From Chloroflexi bacterium HGW-Chloroflexi-2 (GTDB lineage: Bacteria > Chloroflexota > Anaerolineae > Anaerolineales > Anaerolineaceae): 64,000 nucleotides of DNA. The notes below the pieces were generated by a model that was not told where the DNA came from, made no database searches, and saw only the letters and a program-made list of their open reading frames with translations. Position numbers and translations under genes: made by a program. This document shows, piece by piece, positions 12,473 to 45,506 of the stretch; within the stretch, counting starts at the first letter, position 1, and the number at the start of each line of letters is the position of its first letter. Location of the stretch: assembly GCA_002840735.1 (NCBI GenBank), contig PHBY01000004.1:62001-126000 (forward strand), read 5' to 3'.

Positions 12473-13849
12473 CTATGGCAAATTGCTGAAGAGGGTATTG
12501 AGTGACTCAGCCAATGTGGGATGAGCAAATATCCCATCCCGTAAGGTGGTATAAGGTACTTTCCCCATCATCGCAATTTGTAACATCGACATGATCTCTC
12601 CACCTTCAACACCAAGAATGGCAGCACCAAGAATTTGTTTTGTTTCAGTGTTGACCAATGCTTTCATAAAACCACTGGTGCGGTCCAACTCCAATGCCCT
12701 GGCAACATAACTCATTGGTATCTTTACCACTTCAAAATCAATATTAGCAGCCTGTGCTTCTTTTTCTGATAATCCTATTCTGCCAAGTTGAGGATCTGTG
12801 AAAAGCACATATGGCACCATTCTGTCTTTTATACTTAACGACTTCTTGTGCAACAGATTGCCTTCCAAAATTCGAAAATCATCATACGCAATGTGCGTGA
12901 ATGCTGGTCCACCCTTGATATCACCGACGGCATAGATACCAGGAATGTTGGTCTCAAGTTGTTCATTGACCTCAACAAAACCCCGTTTATCAATCTTTAC
13001 CCCAGTTTTTTCCAGACTCAGTTGATCTGAATTTGGGATGCGGCCGGTGGCTACCAAAAGATGAGAACCGTTCAGGTCAATTTGCCCGTTTGGCGTTGAT
13101 ACCTGTAAGTTGATCCTGTAATTTGCAGTTTGGGATATGGAAGCCGTCTGGGCGTTCAGATATACTTCAATCCCATCTTCCTCCAGAATTTGCTGCATTC
13201 CTTCAGCGATGTCATCATCTTCACGTCCCAACAATTGTTTTGAATGTTGTAGAATCGTCACCTGGCTGCCAAAGCGATGAAACATCTGACCGAATTCAAG
13301 TGCAATATACCCCCCACCCAGAATAATCAGGTGTTCCGGGACTTCATCCAGTTCCATAATCGAAGAGGAATCTAGATAATTGACATTTTCCAATCCTGAA
13401 ATGGCAGGAATATTGGGTCTGCCACCAGCATTGAGGATGATGGTGTTGGCACTTATTTGAAATGCTTCATTCTCGGATTTCACTTCCAGAATTTTGTTGC
13501 CAATAAAAGCGGCTTTTCCATAAAGTAAAGATACTCCAGCATCAACAATCCGTTGTTCACTGCCATCCCGAAAACTGGAGACAATCTCTCTTTTTCGTTC
13601 TCTGACCTGGCTGAGGTTAACAGTAAGATTGTCTAAGGCAACACCATATTTTTGCGCATGACGTGCCAGGTGAGCAACCTCGGCACTGGCAATCATGGTC
13701 TTGGTAGGCGTACAACCCACATTTACACATGTACCGCCAACAAATTTTTCTTCGACCAGGGCAATTTTTTTCCCGGCAGCAGCAAAGGCTCTGGAAAGTG
13801 GATTTCCAGCCTGCCCTGCGCCAATAATGATAACATCAAATATTTCCAT
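12473..13849 (-). CDS. Flavoprotein disulfide reductase, mercuric-reductase-like (paralogue 3)
   Basis: A 458-residue class I pyridine nucleotide-disulfide oxidoreductase: FAD motif GAGQAG (10-15), redox disulfide C41-VNVG-C46 (GGTCVNVGCTPTK), NAD(P)-binding GGGYIALEFG and YAVGDI. Unlike paralogues 1 and 2 it keeps the catalytic histidine in the C-terminal AHPTLAE motif, so it resembles a classical disulfide reductase more closely. Start: ATG at 13849; a TTG at 13858 is possible but has no better ribosome-binding site. Downstream of the OpuC-type importer on the same strand, 12 bp after its last gene, so it may be co-transcribed. Confidence 0.88.
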   Translation of the reverse strand: MEIFDVIIIGAGQAGNPLSRAFAAAGKKIALVEEKFVGGTCVNVGCTPTKTMIASAEVAHLARHAQKYGVALDNLTVNLSQVRERKREIVSSFRDGSEQRIVDAGVSLLYGKAAFIGNKILEVKSENEAFQISANTIILNAGGRPNIPAISGLENVNYLDSSSIMELDEVPEHLIILGGGYIALEFGQMFHRFGSQVTILQHSKQLLGREDDDIAEGMQQILEEDGIEVYLNAQTASISQTANYRINLQVSTPNGQIDLNGSHLLVATGRIPNSDQLSLEKTGVKIDKRGFVEVNEQLETNIPGIYAVGDIKGGPAFTHIAYDDFRILEGNLLHKKSLSIKDRMVPYVLFTDPQLGRIGLSEKEAQAANIDFEVVKIPMSYVARALELDRTSGFMKALVNTETKQILGAAILGVEGGEIMSMLQIAMMGKVPYTTLRDGIFAHPTLAESLNTLFSNLP

Positions 13850-13861
13850 AATTTTCAACTT

Positions 13862-14494
13862 TCAAATTCTCTTTCCATAAATTCTAAATTCAGCCCGTTG
13901 CTCCAAATAGCGAATAAAGTAGTTGGCTGCAAAAGACAACACGGTAACCGCCAGTGCTCCTGTAAATATTTTGTCGTAATTGGCAGTGATCACCCCCTGA
14001 AAAAGCAACACGCCCAGTCCACCTGCATTAATAAAGGCAGCGATTGTACCAATACCAATGGAAGAGAGCGCTACCAGACGAATCCCTGCCAACAACATGG
14101 GCAATGCCAAAGGAAATTCTATTTGCCAGAACCTTTGCCATCCATTTAATCCCATCCCCCGGGCAGCTTCCAGAACTGCCGGTTCAATGGTCGTTAACCC
14201 CACCAGCCAGTTTCTGATCAGCAACAATTGAGCATAGGCAGTCAGGGCAATGATGGCTGGTCTGGTTCCCAATCCAAATAGGGGAATCAGTAATACGAAG
14301 AATGAGAGACTCGGAATCGTGTAAATAATACCCAGAACACTCATCACCGGACCGCGCAACCAGCGAACCCTTGCCAGCAATAACCCCAGCGGGATCCCGA
14401 TCAGCAGGGAGAAAAAAATCACCGCCAGTGTCAGTTGTAAATGTTGCAGGAAAAGTTTTGCCACCACATCAAAATTGTTGACCAGATAATTCAT
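13862..14494 (-). CDS. Osmolyte ABC transporter permease (OpuCB/OpuBD type)
   Basis: A 210-residue permease with about five transmembrane segments, the size of single-domain glycine betaine/choline/carnitine permeases. The EAA loop reads AARGMGLNGWQRFWQIEFPL, and IGTIAAFINAGGLG is the conserved last motif. It forms the channel with the second permease at 16512. Follows the ATPase gene by 11 bp. Confidence 0.9.
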   Translation of the reverse strand: MNYLVNNFDVVAKLFLQHLQLTLAVIFFSLLIGIPLGLLLARVRWLRGPVMSVLGIIYTIPSLSFFVLLIPLFGLGTRPAIIALTAYAQLLLIRNWLVGLTTIEPAVLEAARGMGLNGWQRFWQIEFPLALPMLLAGIRLVALSSIGIGTIAAFINAGGLGVLLFQGVITANYDKIFTGALAVTVLSFAANYFIRYLEQRAEFRIYGKRI

Positions 14495-14505
14495 TGTTTC
14501 AGCTT

Positions 14506-15555
14506 CTATTCTGAAGGTAGGTTGGAAATTAACATTTCACGCAAGTCAGAATACCCAACCGTACCCAGTAAATGATTTTCCGAATCCTTCACGGGCAGTG
14601 AGTCTCTGCCACTACACAACAACAACGAAACTACCGATCGCAAATCGTCTTCCGGGTGTAATACTGTGCCAGGTCTTTCAACAGGTTGAGATCCACCCGT
14701 AAAAATTGACTGATTTTTTCTGGCTTTTAAGATGGAATTGACATTTACAAGACTCAATTTTCGAAGAATATTGCTGGACCCCAGCAGGTCCTCAATAAAT
14801 TCATTTTCGGGTTGGGTCACCAGTTCCAGAGGGGTACCATATTGCACCAGTTTTCCGGCACGCATCACAATAATTTTTGTTGCCAATCGAAATGCCTCTT
14901 CTACATCATGGGTAACAAATAGAATGGTTTTATTCAATTTTCCATGAAGATCAATCAATTCGCTCTGCAAGCGTTCGCGATTAATCGCATCTACGGCTGC
15001 AAAAGGTTCATCCATCAACAGGATTTCCGGGTCTGCCGCGAGAGCACGCGCTAATCCAACGCGCTGCTGTTCACCACCCGAAAGCTGTCTGGGGTAGCGT
15101 GGCAAGTACGAAACAGGTAACCCAATCAATTGCATGAGCATTTCCAGCCGGTCGATGATCTGCTTTTCTTCCCATCCCAGAAGATGGGGGACAATGGAAA
15201 TATTCTTTTGAATAGTCATATGCGGAAAGAGCCCAACCTGTTGGATCACGTATCCGATTTGCCGTCGTAATTCATTCACCGGCAATGTATGAATTTCTTT
15301 ACCACCCATCCAGATTTTCCCACTATCCGGTTCATACAAGCGATTGACCATTTTTAATAATGTTGTTTTTCCACAACCTGATGGTCCTAAAAGAACAACC
15401 AGATCACCAGCCGGGATCTTGACCGAAACCTGATCCACGGCTGGGTTTGTGTTGGTTGTAAATGATTTAGACACACGCTCGAAAACTATCTCACCCGATT
15501 CGCTAACCGGTAGGATGTTTGTGTCTGCTGTAGAGGAAATCATTTCGTTGGACAT
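14506..15555 (-). CDS. Osmolyte ABC transporter ATP-binding protein with C-terminal CBS region (OpuCA type)
   Basis: A 349-residue ATPase: Walker A GPSGCGKTT, Q-loop VIQQVGLFPHMT, signature LSGGEQQR, Walker B EILLMDEPF and switch VTHDVEEA. The region after about residue 265 ends in a CBS-like element (LPVKDSENHLLGTVGYSDLR), as in OpuA/OpuCA proteins where tandem CBS domains sense ionic strength. Only one clear CBS unit is seen. It powers compatible-solute uptake. Confidence 0.9.
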   Translation of the reverse strand: MSNEMISSTADTNILPVSESGEIVFERVSKSFTTNTNPAVDQVSVKIPAGDLVVLLGPSGCGKTTLLKMVNRLYEPDSGKIWMGGKEIHTLPVNELRRQIGYVIQQVGLFPHMTIQKNISIVPHLLGWEEKQIIDRLEMLMQLIGLPVSYLPRYPRQLSGGEQQRVGLARALAADPEILLMDEPFAAVDAINRERLQSELIDLHGKLNKTILFVTHDVEEAFRLATKIIVMRAGKLVQYGTPLELVTQPENEFIEDLLGSSNILRKLSLVNVNSILKARKNQSIFTGGSQPVERPGTVLHPEDDLRSVVSLLLCSGRDSLPVKDSENHLLGTVGYSDLREMLISNLPSE

Positions 15556-15563
15556 GCTTCGTT

Positions 15564-16481
15564 CTACTTAACCAGACCATTTTCTAATAAAAACGCTCTG
15601 GCTACATCGGCTGGTTCCTTGCCTTCCGGACCATCTACCTGCCAGTTCAAGCCAGACATGATATCATCGGTCAGCAAGGGGGCAAAATCATTCAATATTT
15701 TTTCAATTTGCGGATATTTTTCGAGAGTGTCCTGACGAATCACCGGGGCAACATTGTAGATGGGGTAAAAGACCAGATCATCCACCAGTAGCAGAAGGTC
15801 ATTACCTTTGATTGCACCATCTGTGCCAAATGCAACAACTACATCCACCTGTCCTTCCAGAAGGGCTTGATAGCGCAAGCTACCCGTACCCAATTGTTTA
15901 ACTTCCTTGAATTCAAAACCACCGTAGGCTTGTTGTAACCCTTTAAGACCATCCTCACGCTCGAGGAATTCAGCCGGTCCCCCTAATACCAGTTCGGACG
16001 CTTTTTGTGAAAGATCAGAATAAGTCTGAATGCCATATTGCGCAGCCACTTCTTTCGTCATCGCTAACGCCTGGGTATCATTGAATGGGGAAGGGGTTAG
16101 CCAAGTCAGGTTGTATTGTTGTTCATAACCGCTCTTCACCGTTGTATAAATCTCCTGAGCGTCCTGAATGGGATCTAATTTCAACATTGTCAATAATCCG
16201 GTTGACGTGTATTCCGGATAGAGATCTATATCACCATTCATCATCGCTTCGTGGGCAATGGGTGTTCCGCCCAGATTGAGTTTTCTTTCAACCGTAAAGC
16301 CCTCTTTTTCTAATAATTGGGCATACATTTCCGCAACAATAAATTGCTCGGTAAAGTCTTTCGATCCGACGATAACTGTTCCAACGCTATCCGCAGATGG
16401 AGAGGGGGAACAGGCACTTAAAATCAACGCTGAGCTCAGCAAAACAAACACAAAAGTAAAGATTTTTTTTGATTTTAACAT
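15564..16481 (-). CDS. Osmolyte-binding lipoprotein (OpuCC/OsmF type)
   Basis: A 305-residue solute-binding lipoprotein: signal with lipobox LILSAC (residue 24 Cys). The mature part begins with IVGSKDFTEQFIVAEMYAQL and contains GGTPIAHEAMMNGDIDLYPE and EYTSTGL, the signature of the QAT (quaternary amine transporter) binding proteins. Expected ligands are glycine betaine, choline or carnitine; the binding-cage aromatics cannot be verified by eye. It lies between the permease at 16512 and the ATPase. Confidence 0.9.
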   Translation of the reverse strand: MLKSKKIFTFVFVLLSSALILSACSPSPSADSVGTVIVGSKDFTEQFIVAEMYAQLLEKEGFTVERKLNLGGTPIAHEAMMNGDIDLYPEYTSTGLLTMLKLDPIQDAQEIYTTVKSGYEQQYNLTWLTPSPFNDTQALAMTKEVAAQYGIQTYSDLSQKASELVLGGPAEFLEREDGLKGLQQAYGGFEFKEVKQLGTGSLRYQALLEGQVDVVVAFGTDGAIKGNDLLLLVDDLVFYPIYNVAPVIRQDTLEKYPQIEKILNDFAPLLTDDIMSGLNWQVDGPEGKEPADVARAFLLENGLVK

Positions 16482-16511
16482 TTAACTCCTCCTTAGAGTT
16501 TTACAACTTGA

Positions 16512-17153
16512 TTAATTTTCAGGTACTTGATACCTTCTTAAAAACAATGACCAGAACGATTCGCTGGATAAAGCTAACAACGCAACAGGTATTGCGCCTA
16601 CCAGCATAATCGGAACATCATACAAGGCAAAGCCACGGGTAATGAAGTCACCTAAACCACCGCCGCCGATAAACGAAGCCAGCGTAGCGCTGGAGATTAC
16701 TTCAACCGAAGCGATCCGGATTCCAGTGACAATTGCAGGGATTGCCAGTGGAATCTCAATTTTGGTCATTACCTGGGTTTTGGTCATTCCCATGCCCGTT
16801 GCTGCTTCAATAGTGAATGCATCTACCCCGCGAATCCCTGTATATGTGTTAATCAATACCGGGGGAAAAGCTAAAACAGTCAACGCGATCAGGGAAGGAA
16901 AAAATCCCAGGCCCAGATAAGGCAAGGCAAGAAAAAGAATAGCCAGGCTGGGAACAACACGGAATGCGTTAAAAATATTGATAACAACCTGGGCAATGCC
17001 TGTACGTTTAGCGATCCAAATTCCAATTGGCAGGGCAATCAATAAACTGATCACCATAGCAAAGGAACTCAGAACTAAATGTTGGCGAGTCGCATTCCAA
17101 AAAAATGACTGATTGTTAATATAGTATTGGAATGCATCCTGCAGTAATTCCAT
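16512..17153 (-). CDS. Osmolyte ABC transporter permease (second; OpuCD type)
   Basis: A 213-residue permease. RTGIAQVVINIFNAFRVVPS and GVDAFTIEAATGMGMTKTQV (the EAA loop) are typical of proline/glycine-betaine permeases; IGGGGLGDFITRG is the closing motif. Start: ATG at 17153, although a TTG at 17165 in the same frame is also possible. It is the first gene of the four-gene importer operon 17153-13862. Confidence 0.88.
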   Translation of the reverse strand: MELLQDAFQYYINNQSFFWNATRQHLVLSSFAMVISLLIALPIGIWIAKRTGIAQVVINIFNAFRVVPSLAILFLALPYLGLGFFPSLIALTVLAFPPVLINTYTGIRGVDAFTIEAATGMGMTKTQVMTKIEIPLAIPAIVTGIRIASVEVISSATLASFIGGGGLGDFITRGFALYDVPIMLVGAIPVALLALSSESFWSLFLRRYQVPEN

Positions 17154-17336
17154 AAAGAAACCCAATTACCCATGTATCATTCAAAAAAACAAACATAACA
17201 AAGTCATGATTTATTATTACACAAACACATCCGGTTGTTCAAGGTTTGTACAACACCAGGGTGTATTAAATCCAATCAAAGTAATAAACAGCTTTAACCC
17301 AAGTAAGTTTTGTGTTTTTTTACCAGGCTGGATGAC

Positions 17337-17716: not shown

Positions 17717-18679
17717 TCATAAATTCCAAGGACAGTAATCCCTATTAAATATATGAATGCTGCCACCTTGTTTGGTATGATCAATCATATCGAGAGCTGC
17801 CAATAAAACTTCTCTTTGAGTTTCATGATCATTCGGAGCGCCGAGAGGACGCCCCATGGGAAAGTCAGTCAACACAATTCTGGGTAAATGCATTGCCCGC
17901 AGACGATCACTAAATACACCAGATGCTATCACTACAGTAGCAATCCCACTTTCTTCCATCGCTCTGGCTACATGCCCCACGGACACATGACAAACCGGTC
18001 AGACCGGTACCAGAATGAGCCCATGAATTTCTTCATTGTGAAGTTTCTCAATCCAGCGCGGAAGAGCATGGTTTTGCAAGCGCATTTGAGAACACGCTCC
18101 TACAAAAGAATAAGCTGGCGAGGAAAATTCCCCTATTATGCCGTCGGCAGCCAGTTCATTCAAACGGTCAATTGGGAAGTTCACATTGCGATCCATTATT
18201 GCTCCACGTACATCGTATCCGCCATGACGGACTTTGAGCTGATCTGGAGGTGTATTGGTTGGAATGGATGTAAGTTCTGGTTCGAGACGGAGAAAATCTG
18301 TTATTCTTTCCTCAGCTTGGTTTTGGGTCATATCCTCTACACCAAAAGGTTTTGGATCTTGTCCCTGGACAAAATGCCCTGTGGATGCGATTAATGCAAA
18401 GCGCATCTTATCCTTCTGGAGCTCTACCTGAGTAAAAGCAGTTGTTTCGTACTTAAACCTTCCTGTTCCTACATAACCTTTTTGTTGATATTGATAGATG
18501 TGGCTGATTATTCTCTGCAGGTTTCCATCATCCAGTGTGTCCCCCAACTTCCATAATAATTCCTGAAAAAACTTTGTCACTTCTTCATCGGTAAGATCTT
18601 TCAAAAACTTGAAGTTCATATCTGAGCGGGAGCCATAACTAAAAGATTTCTTGAGTTGGCTAATTGTCTCTTCCGTCAT
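17717..18679 (-). CDS. Selenoprotein, glycine/betaine/sarcosine/D-proline reductase B-like (UxxC), read through UGA
   Basis: A 320-residue protein if the in-frame UGA at 17999-18001 is decoded as selenocysteine (U227). The motif is LVPVUPVCHVSVGHVARAME: UxxC directly followed by a GHVARAMEE stretch that stays in frame for 89 more residues. The region after U aligns by pattern with the catalytic end of GrdB/PrdB-type selenoproteins. Those proteins bind their substrate through a Schiff base and use the Sec selenol in reductive C-N cleavage. Here there is no pyruvoyl-type partner (GrdE/PrdA) or GrdA nearby, so the reaction is probably different (a generic reductase). 22 bp downstream of another selenoprotein gene. 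Confidence 0.85.
17999..18001 (-). other. In-frame UGA, predicted selenocysteine codon (U227)
   Basis: TGA on the minus strand, followed in frame by CCG-GTT-TGT (P-V-C). The downstream frame is conserved-looking and continues to 17717. A weak local hairpin (CATG/CATG) follows, but I could not fold a convincing bacterial SECIS by eye. Confidence 0.85.
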
Positions 18680-18701: not shown

Positions 18702-19394
18702 TCAATTCTCACCAAAGGCTTTTCGAAATTCTTCAACTGCTTTCGGTCCGTTTTCAGCCAGGCGTTGATAAAATGCTACACGGTCACTTTCGCGATAATC
18801 CAAGCGCTCCACAGTGAATGGAGCCAGCCGGACGCCTGTTTTACGTCTTTTCACAACATCCAGTAAATACTCCAGGGAATTTCTGACACTATTTGCATCG
18901 GTCCAATCGGATTTATAGACAGGGACCCCGGAGCGATTAAAAATCCAGGTCATATTAGGCATGGATCCAAAATAACGATGACAGGCTCCATCCAGAGCAT
19001 CCAGCAGAATGGGACGGTTGACACCCAGCACATCCCGCAAGGCTTTGGCATGCGTATTTTTTTGCTTCATGCTAGTTAAATGAGGATAACTTTCACCTGG
19101 ATGAGCTTCGTTGGTGTAAATAAAAATTGACCCGATATTCTCTGAGGAAAAATCATTTGCAATTTTATTCATAGCTGACGCCGCCAGCCCACAGTATGGT
19201 CAGGTAAAACTACCAAATTCTACAACGGTAAAGAGAGATTGATTGAGAGTTTCTTCCAAACTGGTAGGTTGTTCTTCCAAATTCCACAAGGTAAAGTTTT
19301 CTGATTTTTTCCCTAAAGATGGGCTTATATCAAAACGCATCCAGCGTTCAAATTTTTCTGGAACAAATTCATCGTAATTGTAAACATCCATCAT
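18702..19394 (-). CDS. Selenoprotein, iodothyronine-deiodinase-like thioredoxin-fold protein, read through UGA
   Basis: A 230-residue protein when UGA at 19200-19202 is read as selenocysteine (U65). The core motif FGSFTUPYC is the deiodinase signature (animal deiodinases have FGSCTUPPF), followed downstream by YTNEAHPGESY, matching the EEAHP segment near the deiodinase active site. UxxC makes a thioredoxin-like redox pair. Bacterial members are not known to act on thyroid hormone; a peroxidase or reductase role is likely. Start: ATG at 19394 behind AAAGGA; a longer in-frame opening to 19511 would overlap zwf. Directly precedes the selenoprotein at 17717. Confidence 0.88.
19200..19202 (-). other. 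In-frame UGA, predicted selenocysteine codon (U65)
   Basis: TGA in the deiodinase signature. Fifteen bases downstream a hairpin GCTG-GCGGCGT-CAGC (minus strand, 19188-19174) has a GG-containing loop at the distance expected for a bacterial SECIS element (about 16-20 bases after UGA). Confidence 0.85.
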
Positions 19395-19422
19395 TCCTTT
19401 ATTAATTATTCCTCCAAAAAAT

Positions 19423-20880
19423 TTAGTGATTTCCACATCCTCGCATCCATTGATACCCATCTCTAGCCAATAAATCATCGGACTGTTTTGGTCCCCAGCT
19501 ACCTGGATCATAAATAGCTAATGGTGATTTTGTCGCATCTTCCCATGTGTTGATAAATGGGTCAAGGATTTCCCAGGCCAGTTCACTTCTATCACTTCTT
19601 GTAAACAAAGCCGCGTCACCAAGCAATGCATCTAACAAAAGCCGTTCATATGCCTCTGGAATGGCATTATTCCCAAAGACATCTTTATAATGATACTCTA
19701 AATCTACTGATTTAGTTTCGGCAATGGTATCTGGAACTTTGGTTTCAAATTTAAGGTGAATGCCTTCGTCAGGCTGCAAACATAATGATAAGGTGTTGGT
19801 TGTAAATGAGTAACTTTCTGGTAAAGGAAACATCAAATGGGGTGGACGCTTAAATTGTATGACAATCTCACTTATCTTTTCAGCCATCTTTTTTCCGGAA
19901 CGTAGATAAAAGGGTACACCTTCCCAACGCCAGTTATCGATAAAAAATTGAATAGCAGCATAAGTTGGCGTTTGAGAATTTAATGCAACACCGTCTTCCT
20001 CTTTATATCCACGGTACTGCCCGAGGACAGAATGTTTATGAACCTCTGCTTGTGATATTCTTCTGATTGCCTTGAGAACCTTTACTTTTTCATCACGTTG
20101 GTCATTAGCTTTATGAGAAGCGGGTGGCTCCATGGACACAAGAGACAGTAACTGTAGCAAATGATTTTGGAACATGTCACGCACTACCCCAACGGTATCA
20201 TAATAACCTGCACGATGCTCCAATCCAACTTTTTCGGCAACTGTGATCTGCACATTGCTGATATAGTTTCGATTCCAAACAGGTTCAAAGATGGTATTTG
20301 CAAAACGTGCAATCAAGATATTCTGGACTGTTTCCTTCCCTAAATAATGATCGATACGATAAATCTGATCCTCACGTAATACCTTCAAGATATCGTGGTT
20401 AAGTTTTTTGGCTGATTCAAGATCAGTACCAAATGGTTTTTCAATTACTACGCGTCGCCATCCATTCTCTTCCTCAATTTGTCCAGATTTTCCCAGATTT
20501 ACAATAATATCTGTAAAAAAATTTGGGGGAGTTGCCAGATAAAAAACCCGATTGGCTGATCCATTTTCTAAGTTTTCCAGTGTGTTGGCTAAATGTACAA
20601 AAGAATTCTCATCCTGAAATTTTCCAGAAATATAATGCAGTTGGTTTTCAAATTCACGCCATTTTTCATTATTTACCTGGAAACCCGCAAATTTATCGAT
20701 TCCCTCTCGTGCGATTTTTCGTAATTCCAGATCTGTCCAAGATCGTCCAGCAAATCCCACGATATTAAAATTACCTTTAAGCCGATCTTTCTGAAAAAGA
20801 TTGAATAATGCCGGAATAAGTTTACGTTGCGCCAAGTCACCAGAGATCCCAAAAATAACAATGGTTGTCGTTGTATCCAT
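19423..20880 (-). CDS. zwf: Glucose-6-phosphate 1-dehydrogenase
   Basis: A 485-residue enzyme oxidising glucose 6-phosphate to 6-phosphogluconolactone with NADP+ (or NAD+). The nucleotide-binding strand IVIFGISGDLAQRK is at the N-terminus, and the active-site motif RIDHYLGKE carries the substrate Lys and catalytic His. IEKPFGTDLESA follows the family pattern. I chose the ATG at 20880 (GAGGAG upstream) over an open extension to 20910. It is divergent from glk and the rest of the pentose phosphate cluster. No pgl (6-phosphogluconolactonase) is seen in the window. Confidence 0.97.
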   Translation of the reverse strand: MDTTTTIVIFGISGDLAQRKLIPALFNLFQKDRLKGNFNIVGFAGRSWTDLELRKIAREGIDKFAGFQVNNEKWREFENQLHYISGKFQDENSFVHLANTLENLENGSANRVFYLATPPNFFTDIIVNLGKSGQIEEENGWRRVVIEKPFGTDLESAKKLNHDILKVLREDQIYRIDHYLGKETVQNILIARFANTIFEPVWNRNYISNVQITVAEKVGLEHRAGYYDTVGVVRDMFQNHLLQLLSLVSMEPPASHKANDQRDEKVKVLKAIRRISQAEVHKHSVLGQYRGYKEEDGVALNSQTPTYAAIQFFIDNWRWEGVPFYLRSGKKMAEKISEIVIQFKRPPHLMFPLPESYSFTTNTLSLCLQPDEGIHLKFETKVPDTIAETKSVDLEYHYKDVFGNNAIPEAYERLLLDALLGDAALFTRSDRSELAWEILDPFINTWEDATKSPLAIYDPGSWGPKQSDDLLARDGYQWMRGCGNH

Positions 20881-20951
20881 AAAGAGACTCCTCAATAAAT
20901 AATATTGCAATCGATCTTATAAACCGCTTGCATCCAATTGGATGATGTTTC

Positions 20952-43090: not shown

Positions 43091-43237
43091 TTTTTTACTC
43101 CTGCCTTTTTGACGTCATTGCAACCGTATCTCTTACATTATATTTACATAATAACATGCGAGAATCCAGTTTTTATAGGTAAGAATTCACTTGAAAAGAG
43201 CGTCTTATTCGAAGAAAGAGTAAATAAATGAAAGGAA

Positions 43238-43582
43238 ATGAAAATAAAAAAACCACTTCACATTTCAGATAATGAATTTCAAAATAAAGTATTGGATGCT
43301 TCCATTCCGGTAGTTGTTGACTTTTGGGCTCCATGGTGTGGTCCATGTAAGTTTATTGCACCTATCCTGGATAAAATCGCTGCTGATTTTGATGATAAAG
43401 TATTGATTGCCAAAGTAAACACGGATGAGAATCCTGAATGGGCAACCAAATTAGGAGTGCAAGGAATTCCAACCTTGTTGTTTGTCTCCCAGGGTGATAT
43501 AAAATCCCGATTGGTTGGTGCAGCTCCTGCTCAGCAAATCATTGCGAAAATTAATGAGTTGTTGCCGGTTACTACTGGGTAA
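43238..43582 (+). CDS. Thioredoxin
   Basis: A 114-residue thioredoxin: FWAPWCGPCKFIAP active site (W-C-G-P-C, about residues 31-35), VNTDENPEWATKLGV and the cis-proline GIPTLL. AAAGGA lies directly before the ATG. First of two thiol/selenol genes with the Sec peroxiredoxin-like gene at 43654. General disulfide reductase; a possible electron donor for that protein. Confidence 0.93.
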   Translation: MKIKKPLHISDNEFQNKVLDASIPVVVDFWAPWCGPCKFIAPILDKIAADFDDKVLIAKVNTDENPEWATKLGVQGIPTLLFVSQGDIKSRLVGAAPAQQIIAKINELLPVTTG

Positions 43583-43653: not shown

Positions 43654-44199
43654 ATGAGAAAAAGTCAGGCTGGACAAAAAGCAAATCAAATTATTTTAAA
43701 CAGTGTAGAAGGCGATACTTTTACCCTCTCAGAGGAACTTCAAAAAGGCAAGAATGTTCTACTGGTCTTCTTAAGACATCTGGGTTGACTGCCCTGTCGT
43801 GAACATGCTGCACAGTTGTGCCAGCGTCAGGAAGAATTCGAACAGTTGAACACCAGAGTTGTCATCATCTCATTTGGAACATTGCCTGCCCTGCAAACAT
43901 GGATGAAAGAAACCTGTGTTACATTTGATGTGCTACTGGACCCGGATCGTTCAGTCTATCGAGCTTATGAGTTAGAAGAATCTCGCTGGCGATCCTGGAG
44001 CCCAAGAACCTTATGGACCTATGCCAGATTACTAATTTCTGGTAGAAAATGGCTGCCGAAAGAAGGCGATACTTCCCAAATGGGTGGAGATTTTATTATC
44101 GATTCAATGGGAAATGTCAGGTTGGCCTATAGGAGCAAAGAACCTGCAGATCGGCCAGCTGTTGATAAGTTATTGAAAATCATAAAAGACATACCCTAA
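43654..44199 (+). CDS. Selenoprotein, peroxiredoxin-like (AhpC/TSA, PRXL2-type), read through UGA
   Basis: A 181-residue thioredoxin-fold protein if UGA at 43786-43788 is selenocysteine (U45): the motif LRHLGULPCREHAAQL has UxxC in the place where PRXL2/AhpC-TSA relatives have CxxC (RxxGCxxCR). The remaining frame encodes strand VVIISFGTLPAL and the family segment RRSVYRAYELEE-like (DRSVYRAYELEE). A peroxidase or reductase acting with the preceding thioredoxin is a reasonable guess. ATG chosen behind AAAGGA at 43643. Third selenoprotein of the window. Confidence 0.85.
43786..43788 (+). other. In-frame UGA, predicted selenocysteine codon (U45)
   Basis: TGA after GGT in the RHLG-U-LPCR motif, with the same frame open for 137 codons afterwards. 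CTGT/ACAG can pair around a 14-base loop shortly downstream, but I do not claim a definite SECIS. Confidence 0.82.
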
Positions 44200-44282: not shown

Positions 44283-45404
44283 CTAATTCACATATTCCAT
44301 CAGATAGCCATAACCTTCTTTTTCCATCTCTTCATAAGGAATGAAGCGTAAGGCAGCGCTGTTGATGCAGTAGCGCGTACCAGTTGGTGAAACAGGATCA
44401 TTAAAGAAAAGGTGCCCTAAATGAGAATTACCTGCCCGACTGCGGACTTCGATGCGCACCATACCGAAAGAATTATCCTCTTTAGACCTGACAGTGTTCT
44501 CATCGATAGGCTTGGTGAAACTTGGCCAGCCGGTACCACTATCAAATTTATCACTTGAAGAGAATAATGGCTCACCAGTGACCACATCCACATAGAGACC
44601 ACGTTCGTGATTGTCCCAGTATTCATTATTAAAGGCTGATTCAGTACCTGCGTTTTGGGTTACTTTGTACTGCAGGTCGCTCAGGTTTTCTCTGATCTGA
44701 TCTTCGCTAGGTCGTTGATAGTTATCTGGATCGACGACCATTTCACTGATCGTGTTAACCTCGTCACTGGAAATATGGCAGTATCCAAGGGGATTTTTTA
44801 TTAAGTAGTCTTGATGGTATTCTTCAGCATCATAAAATCGTTCCAGTGTTTCAATTTCCACCACAAATTTTTCATGACGTGCTCTTTCAATAGATGCGAT
44901 GCGCTCCACAGTTGCCTTAGAAGTTTCATCTGTGTAATAAACACCTGTTTGGTATTGGGTACCGATATCATTCCCCTGAGCATTTTTGATAGTGGGGTCA
45001 ATTACCTGAAAGTAAGCGAATAGAATCGCGTCCAGACTGATAACTTTAGGTTGGTATTCAACCCGAATCGTCTCGCGATAACCAGTTTGGCCGGTTATCA
45101 CTTTATTGTAAGTTGGTTCAATGTCTGCATTACCGTTAGCATATCCGCTTACCACGTCAACTACGCCGGGGAGTGATTGCATCAACTTTTCCAACCCCCA
45201 AAAACATCCTCCCGCCAGATAAATAACCTCTACTCCCTCTTTTTCCACGTATGTTGGATCAAATCCTGTTTGTGTCATTTCACTCACTTTCTCCTCTTCA
45301 GTCATGGTCGGATTGCTGATCGGTGTTTCTGTCGTTGAACCACAGGCACTGACCAAAATCATCACCAGGGCTGTTAACATAAGAATTTGTACTTTTTTTG
45401 TCAC
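44283..45404 (-). CDS. Exported methionine sulfoxide reductase MsrA-MsrB fusion lipoprotein
   Basis: A 373-residue lipoprotein (from GTG 45404, 8 bases after AAGGA; a TTG at 45410 is also possible). Lipobox LVSAC; MsrA domain with the catalytic GGCFWGLEKLM, then MsrB with GTGWPSFTKPI and the catalytic Cys in GTRYCINSAALRF. It repairs both S- and R-methionine sulfoxide on the cell surface. Both catalytic cysteines are Cys here, not Sec. The MsrB zinc-ligand CxxC pairs are not evident. Confidence 0.93.
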   Translation of the reverse strand: MTKKVQILMLTALVMILVSACGSTTETPISNPTMTEEEKVSEMTQTGFDPTYVEKEGVEVIYLAGGCFWGLEKLMQSLPGVVDVVSGYANGNADIEPTYNKVITGQTGYRETIRVEYQPKVISLDAILFAYFQVIDPTIKNAQGNDIGTQYQTGVYYTDETSKATVERIASIERARHEKFVVEIETLERFYDAEEYHQDYLIKNPLGYCHISSDEVNTISEMVVDPDNYQRPSEDQIRENLSDLQYKVTQNAGTESAFNNEYWDNHERGLYVDVVTGEPLFSSSDKFDSGTGWPSFTKPIDENTVRSKEDNSFGMVRIEVRSRAGNSHLGHLFFNDPVSPTGTRYCINSAALRFIPYEEMEKEGYGYLMEYVN

Positions 45405-45506
45405 CTTCAAAATCCTTCAAACTACCTTTAAACTAGGTCTTCTACTTGTACCTTTACAAGATTACAATTAATCGTTTTTACTACACCTGAATTAAACAGA
45501 AATTAA

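Follow-up and report, generated by a model that had tools for sequence, protein, structure and literature searches.

Genetic organization of the locus

The window, i.e. the whole 64,000-nt stretch of Chloroflexi bacterium HGW-Chloroflexi-2 DNA analysed here, contains a deiodinase-like selenoprotein gene with a zwf-like gene directly upstream on the same strand (gap of 28 nt) and a second selenoprotein gene, also on this strand, which begins 22 nt past it and was absent from the earlier note on this DNA. The features of the locus are as follows:

19423-20910 (-): zwf-like gene (glucose-6-phosphate dehydrogenase), named from sequence, start not fixed
18702-19394 (-): deiodinase-like selenoprotein gene, 230 aa, Sec at residue 65, UxxC (UPYC) active site
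19200-19202 (-): in-frame UGA (Sec codon) of the deiodinase-like gene
19173-19189 (-): bSECIS-type hairpin, 10 nt past the UGA, 6-7 bp stem, 3-5 nt loop
17717-18679 (-): second selenoprotein gene, PrdB/GrdB-like reductase subunit, Sec in VPVUPVCH
17999-18001 (-): in-frame UGA (Sec codon) of the PrdB-like gene
17970-17988 (-): putative SECIS hairpin of the PrdB-like gene, z -1.1 versus shuffles for the window alone

Reading TGA as U turns 18702-19394 (-) into a single frame, 231 codons long with the stop counted, in which U occurs once internally, at residue 65 of the product, in the context VVEFGSFT-U-PYCGLAASAMN. The earlier note had placed an in-frame UGA at the selenocysteine position of the deiodinases, and its coordinates, frame and motif (FGSFTUPYC) are all exact; the EAHP block that it reported after Sec was found at residues 96-99, EAHPGE lying 31 residues past Sec65. 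The likeness to the animal motif, also claimed there, holds for the position of Sec, but the motif itself is UPYC (UxxC) and differs from the animal UPPF. Translation with table 11 yields two ORFs, 18702-19172 (156 aa) and 19200-19511 (103 aa). Upstream, no stop interrupts the frame as far as an ATG at 19511, which falls within the end of the zwf-like gene; the start was therefore set at 19394 to agree with the length of the homologues.

Selenocysteine decoding of the in-frame UGA

The relatives compared (the best 80 of 246) are mainly Chloroflexota, some being labelled Planctomycetota, Gemmatimonadota, Acidobacteriota, Latescibacterota or Neomarinimicrobiota; the nearest among them are Anaerolineaceae bacterium KA20 and Chloroflexi bacterium HGW-Chloroflexi-3 (both 85%). 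The site codon is TGA in all 79 that cover the Sec site, L146, in which this site is not covered, being excluded from the count. Locus L145, a frameshifted second copy on the L096 contig, was counted both in the 79 TGA loci and in the ten hairpin failures listed below; its second aligned piece gives a spurious GTA codon at the Sec site. No Cys form was found in the close clade, i.e. among these 79 covered loci of the best 80 of 246.

A deiodinase-like homologue was detected in 21 of 400 sampled genomes of the phylum. From the 25 matched stretches, 19 neighbourhoods were used, leaving out G335, G241 and the second G270 match (with TGA and TAG); the two sets of relatives overlap, as L076, L108 and L142 correspond to G387, G343 and G080. 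The 20 homologues in these neighbourhoods carry U (13), C (2), S (2), G (1), D (1) or A (1) at the site, the deiodinase-like proteins L053, L055, L054, L060 and L062 having Ser, Ser, Gly, Asp and Ala, respectively. The earlier note regarded a codon other than Cys or Sec in relatives as evidence against its reading. Such codons are present in 5 of the 20 distant homologues but absent from the close clade, and for the latter reason they do not refute Sec; the wider family can lose the chalcogen, which the clade of the window protein was not seen to do.

The host genome (4.1 Mb, 40 contigs, 99.87% complete) encodes SelB (349.7 bits, cut-off 242), SelA (546 bits) and SelD (347 bits, the gene itself with one TGA), as well as a tRNA-Sec with anticodon TCA, so that the check for selA, selB, selC and selD proposed earlier ended with all components found. 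A test of co-occurrence with SelA was uninformative, as a match over the cut-off was found in 11 of the 13 genomes that carry a Sec homologue, compared with 321 of 400 in the phylum. G217 has a 20-bit SelA match only and G270 has none, and both carry UGA homologues. The G270 genome, 95% complete, contains UGA-containing deiodinase-like and PrdB-like genes; its lack of a SelA match may reflect either a missing contig or a divergent system.

The SECIS hairpin

The hairpin downstream of the UGA is 17 nt long (GGCUGGCGGCGUCAGCU) and, with the U of this codon as nt 1, spans nt 14-30. It has a 7-bp stem and a 3-nt GGC loop at -7.8 kcal/mol when the G-U and closing C-G pairs are included; the hairpin claimed in the earlier note is therefore present, but its 7-base loop is obtained only without these pairs. 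According to the accessible text of PMC13188914, the bacterial SECIS model comprises a loop of 3-9 nt, an upper stem of 4-16 bp, an energy of -7.5 kcal/mol or lower and a G in the first two loop positions, at 16-37 nt from the UGA. The window hairpin agrees with these constraints as printed there, and the distance previously described as SECIS-compatible proved to be so, the GGC loop lying 17 nt after the UGA.

Taken by itself, the window sequence has a hairpin that is only modestly unusual: it was equalled in 3.9% of 2000 synonymous recodings, and an equally good fold was obtained in 23 of 200 dinucleotide shuffles (z -1.1). Across the window and its 79 relatives it is conserved far beyond chance and far beyond the requirement of the protein: -7.5 kcal/mol or lower was reached in 61 of the 80 sequences, versus 1.8% of synonymous recodings (100 per sequence). 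All six stem pairs are formed in 70/80, one or more being missing in L088, L117, L119, L133, L135, L137, L139, L143, L145 and L147. In the 65 distinct rows pairing amounts to 93.6%, compared with 86.4% (sd 0.8) when the 3' partner was shuffled 1000 times, a control that ignores kinship and in which the observed value was never reached. Columns 16 and 28, which pair with each other, hold A-U in 64 and C-G in 9 of the 80 sequences; since both amino acids change with this double substitution (Met/Leu and Ser/Ala), it is the RNA pairing that is kept. The nine C-G cases may go back to few evolutionary events.

In ten further Sec homologues, among them the UPPF, UPIT and UPLA types, a hairpin occupies about the same place in all (start nt 13-15, end nt 29-31), while the protein sequence under it differs; -7.5 kcal/mol was reached in six of them, the exceptions being L047, L048, L049 and L050. 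No hairpin stronger than -5 kcal/mol was formed by six of the seven homologues lacking Sec. The seventh, L060, with Asp at the Sec site, still has a hairpin of -8.3 kcal/mol, which may be a relic of Sec loss or due to chance.

It might be argued that the UGA is a real stop, the region being a pseudogene, misassembled or composed of two distinct ORFs, as table 11 indeed splits the frame. However, the UGA is kept in every covered relative (79/79, from the best 80 of 246), comparison of homologues revealed protein conservation on both sides of it, the hairpin is conserved and the Sec machinery of the genome is complete. The conservation of the UGA and of the hairpin, together with the recoding control, brings this explanation close to refutation, and we consider its probability negligible. 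The conservation of the codon and the hairpin and the presence of the machinery likewise uphold the Sec decoding proposed in the earlier note: it is established, or nearly so, that the UGA at 19200-19202 is read as Sec through the hairpin just downstream.

Relationship to the deiodinase family

In a Pfam scan of the window protein T4_deiodinase was the best match (E 9.6e-6, 25.5 bits versus a cut-off of 27), closely followed by AhpC-TSA (24.6 bits) and Redoxin (21.8 bits); L044, 67% identical, scores 33.3 bits with T4_deiodinase. Ten of 11 homologues match PF00837 at E ≤ 0.001 and 10 of 11 also match AhpC-TSA, which in single-sequence scans outscores T4_deiodinase in 6 of 10 relatives, a result that counts against the explanation favoured below. 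The NCBIfam model NF038285 (deiodinase_rel) gave 35.7 bits, under its curated cut-off of 250, and the protein was not filed there. A PF00837 search of the host genome returned no match, which is no proof of absence; the window protein itself lies under the cut-off.

A profile built from the 11 homologues and compared with the PDB placed mouse Dio3 (4tr3) on top (E 3.7e-17), followed by Dio2. The AlphaFold2 model of the window protein (mean pLDDT 88.1) matches the fold of Dio2 with Z 20.0 (1.9 Å over 157 residues) and that of Dio3 with Z 19.5 (3.3 Å over 162 residues), the next entry having Z 16.5; Foldseek also places Dio3 first. Thiol-disulfide oxidoreductases of the ResA/DsbE type (4nmu, 1st9, 3gl3) are alike in fold and in the position of their CxxC-type motif (Z 15.7-16.4), but score below the deiodinases (4nmu E 8.3e-11 versus 3.7e-17). 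Membership in the deiodinase family, as claimed in the earlier note, is thus supported by profile, fold and relatives, the single sequence lying just under the Pfam cut-off. We regard Sec decoding and deiodinase family identity of the 18702-19394 product as almost certain, and it is established, or nearly so, that this is a genuine selenoprotein gene of the described bacterial deiodinase-like family.

A tree of 39 rows gathers the UPYC proteins into a single clade, apart from the animal enzymes, that comprises 23 rows, each with Sec, and has a support of 100/100. The relative L056 (UPPF) falls with the mouse enzymes, but with a support of only 86/84; the branch leading to the latter is long, and Dio2 fills 29% of the columns. 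The L056 gene (9711-10352, +) encodes a bacterial deiodinase-like selenoprotein with the animal-type UPPF and a T4_deiodinase score of 75 bits.

The window protein has the thioredoxin fold and the Sec position in common with animal Dio2 and Dio3 (9h48, 4tr3). An N-terminal membrane anchor is a feature of the animal deiodinase family; reading by eye revealed no such hydrophobic anchor before residue 55 of the window protein and no hydrophobic stretch in the 39 extra residues from the upstream ATG. Transmembrane regions are named for mammalian Dio in the accessible part of PMC11592359. The Dio3 residues Ser167, Thr169, Tyr197, Glu200 and His202 correspond to Ser62, Thr64, Tyr93, Glu96 and His98 here (numbering counted on the 4tr3 chain in the profile alignment, roles from the accessible text of PMC7506546); among the 11 homologues four of the five are invariant and Thr64 is nearly so. 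In contrast, the animal omega-loop segment with Trp207 is missing (a 9-residue gap), the omega-loop start given as AHxxDGW in the same part of PMC7506546 reads AHPGESY in the window protein, and His219 of Dio3 is replaced by Leu106, although His is found in other subclades.

Genes accompanying the deiodinase-like gene

The product of the second selenoprotein gene matches PF07355 with 32.1 bits (cut-off 22) and the PrdB model TIGR04483 with E 9.1e-30 and 103.8 bits, under the cut-off of 300, and shares with the PrdB/GrdB subunits described by these models the UxxC Sec motif and the surrounding region. It is a PrdB-like paralogue and was not filed as D-proline reductase. The zwf gene lies directly upstream of the deiodinase-like gene in the window and in 4 of 79 loci (L069, L070, L072 and L073), fragments of it being present in L071. 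A PrdB-like gene, with its UGA kept in 4/4, accompanies the same four of the 79 loci, 69 of which have at least 1800 nt downstream; it follows directly in L069 and L070, while in L072 and L073 one ORF, named sigma-factor-like by eye, lies between. A 33% PrdB-like homologue of L145, on the other strand, was not counted.

The gaps of 22-28 nt are the sole basis for proposing that zwf and the deiodinase-like and PrdB-like genes are probably co-transcribed in this lineage. The neighbours of the deiodinase-like gene differ between genomes, which counts against a co-transcribed module. PrdB-like relatives are common in the phylum (95 of 400 genomes). The PrdB-like gene was rejected as a general partner, since a search with the window PrdB-like protein gave no match in the 19 neighbourhoods, several of which are cut by contig ends.

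Of the 68 loci in which 1300 nt or more of upstream sequence is available, 8 carry another selenoprotein gene, DUF3179-like with the motif TW-U-P[LIV]C, a short distance before the deiodinase-like gene and in the same orientation (L075, L096, L099, L112, L117, L126, L136 and L140), two in tandem in L112. The name was given on similarity by eye and on the DUF3179 selenoproteins listed in the accessible part of PMC9312934. In L075 the stop of this gene is situated 220 nt before the Sec codon of the deiodinase-like gene, which would be roughly 20-30 nt before the start of the latter if it starts as in the window; the L075 DUF3179-like protein begins, by eye, with an apparent lipoprotein signal sequence. 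The host genome has a DUF3179 copy as well, to which the family scan was confined; it is free of TGA and is located beyond the window, at a distance of about 20 kb. Pairs of selenoprotein genes recur around deiodinase-like genes.

A few kb downstream in the window, glycine-betaine-type transporter genes and a gene for a mercuric-reductase-like FAD disulfide oxidoreductase are located at 12473-17165 (-); in L069 and L070, too, the gene for the binding protein of the transporter and that for the FAD enzyme occur near the selenoprotein pair. Homologues of the FAD disulfide reductase occur in 15 of 79 loci, some several kb off and many only 30-40% identical. The window also carries a third probable selenoprotein gene (43654-44199, +; TGA at 43786-43788), peroxiredoxin-like, with the motif FLRHLG-U-LPCRE, an AhpC-TSA score of 69 bits and a putative SECIS fold of z -0.6 (one fold). 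This ORF is situated just after a thioredoxin gene (43235-43582) and adjoins a fusion gene in convergent orientation (44283-45410), called MsrA/MsrB-like on the basis of sequence. The company of the deiodinase-like gene is varied and largely redox, therefore a general reductant-using enzyme is favoured over a dedicated pathway.

Proposed function and alternatives

We suggest that the deiodinase-like gene encodes a family selenoprotein acting as a cytosolic Sec/Cys reductase in redox defence, probably co-transcribed with its neighbours, and as a whole this reading seems reasonably probable. The fold, the Sec and the conserved residues are computed, whereas the catalytic cycle, the electron donor and the substrate are those that we infer. 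The protein would be a soluble cytosolic thioredoxin-fold reductase, likely a cytosolic, NADPH-fed thiol/selenol reductase, with a presumed redox rather than thyroid role, which the earlier note had likewise put forward as an inference. In the proposed cycle, the selenolate of Sec65, positioned by a deiodinase-type hydrogen-bond network of Ser62, Thr64, Tyr93, Glu96 and His98, would attack an oxidised or electrophilic substrate, Cys68 of UPYC would resolve the intermediate as a Sec-Cys selenenylsulfide, and re-reduction would be performed by thioredoxin or an NADPH-fed disulfide reductase. The zwf product would be a source of NADPH, its gene being probably co-transcribed with those of both UxxC selenoproteins, and the enzyme would serve redox defence or thiol maintenance, not thyroid hormone. 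Cys68, kept in 80/80 sequences (window and 79 relatives, codon table), is a possible resolving cysteine, but the UPPF, UPIT and UPLA relatives have Sec without Cys68, which counts against this role. No biochemical evidence for bacterial deiodinase-like members was found in the accessible parts of the family literature.

The protein might instead be a peroxiredoxin-like selenoperoxidase with organic or hydrogen peroxide as its substrate, in which Sec65 would be the peroxidatic residue and Cys68 would resolve. The closeness of the AhpC-TSA and Redoxin scores to that of T4_deiodinase in the window protein, and the higher AhpC-TSA scores in six of the ten relatives scanned, speak for this, as does the Prx motif described in mammalian Dio structures in the accessible part of PMC11592359. 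However, profile alignments place the Sec on the first Cys of a thioredoxin-type CxxC, and the best folds are deiodinases, most of the matches that follow being thiol-disulfide oxidoreductases, while peroxiredoxins score about 4-5 Z below the deiodinases, so that we consider a selenoperoxidase unlikely. Reductive dehalogenation, in which the selenolate would take the halogen off an aromatic or organic halide as in the animal deiodinases, appears less likely still. The Ser/Thr/Tyr/Glu/His network of Dio3 is conserved in the window protein, but the omega-loop segment with Trp207 is not, and the position of His219 is taken by Leu106; moreover, according to the accessible text of one of two structure papers (PMC7506546), the Glu200 network mainly anchors the omega-loop, and no dehalogenation gene was recognised alongside when families were searched for six neighbours.

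A wider reading may also be considered, in which the UPYC proteins would be a shared, perhaps exclusively selenium-dependent component of multi-selenoprotein modules, consisting of zwf, deiodinase-like and PrdB-like genes in Anaerolineaceae and of DUF3179 and deiodinase-like genes in other lineages, with two UxxC selenoproteins working in series on one substrate, possibly a halogenated or electrophilic organic compound. Taken as a whole it is rather improbable. If true, the animal thyroid deiodinases would share ancestry with a bacterial detoxification enzyme.

Known members of the family and significance

Bacterial deiodinase-like proteins were first described in a 2005 study of Sargasso Sea metagenomes, the accessible text of which reports Sec and Cys forms (4 and 6 sequences), bacterial SECIS elements and a suggested redox function (PMC1088965). 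A 2008 ocean survey gives 22 deiodinase-like entries in its first count column (PMC2398784, accessible part), and the part of a 2026 review available to us lists the deiodinase-like protein (PF00837, UxxC) as a high-confidence prediction (PMC13188914). As the family has been in print since 2005, the window gene adds to a known family and is not of a new kind. It resembles the Sargasso Sea proteins, as far as these are presented in the accessible text, in the deiodinase-position Sec, the UxxC motif, the bacterial SECIS and the suggested redox role; here, by contrast, it belongs to a genome with complete Sec machinery and to the UPYC clade, with a PrdB-like selenoprotein alongside. The sampled, partly accessible literature contained no mention of deiodinase-like gene pairs with PrdB-like or DUF3179 genes, which does not show their absence from print.

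Our results support the Sec-containing deiodinase-like family as established in Chloroflexota, with no Cys form among the 79 covered close loci (from the best 80 of 246) and a SECIS element that shows compensatory change. They also provide two concrete gene-pair contexts, with PrdB-like and with DUF3179 selenoproteins, and one bacterial UPPF-type relative, L056, near the animal deiodinases. The pair contexts together with L056 make both the role of the bacterial enzymes and the origin of the animal deiodinases testable.
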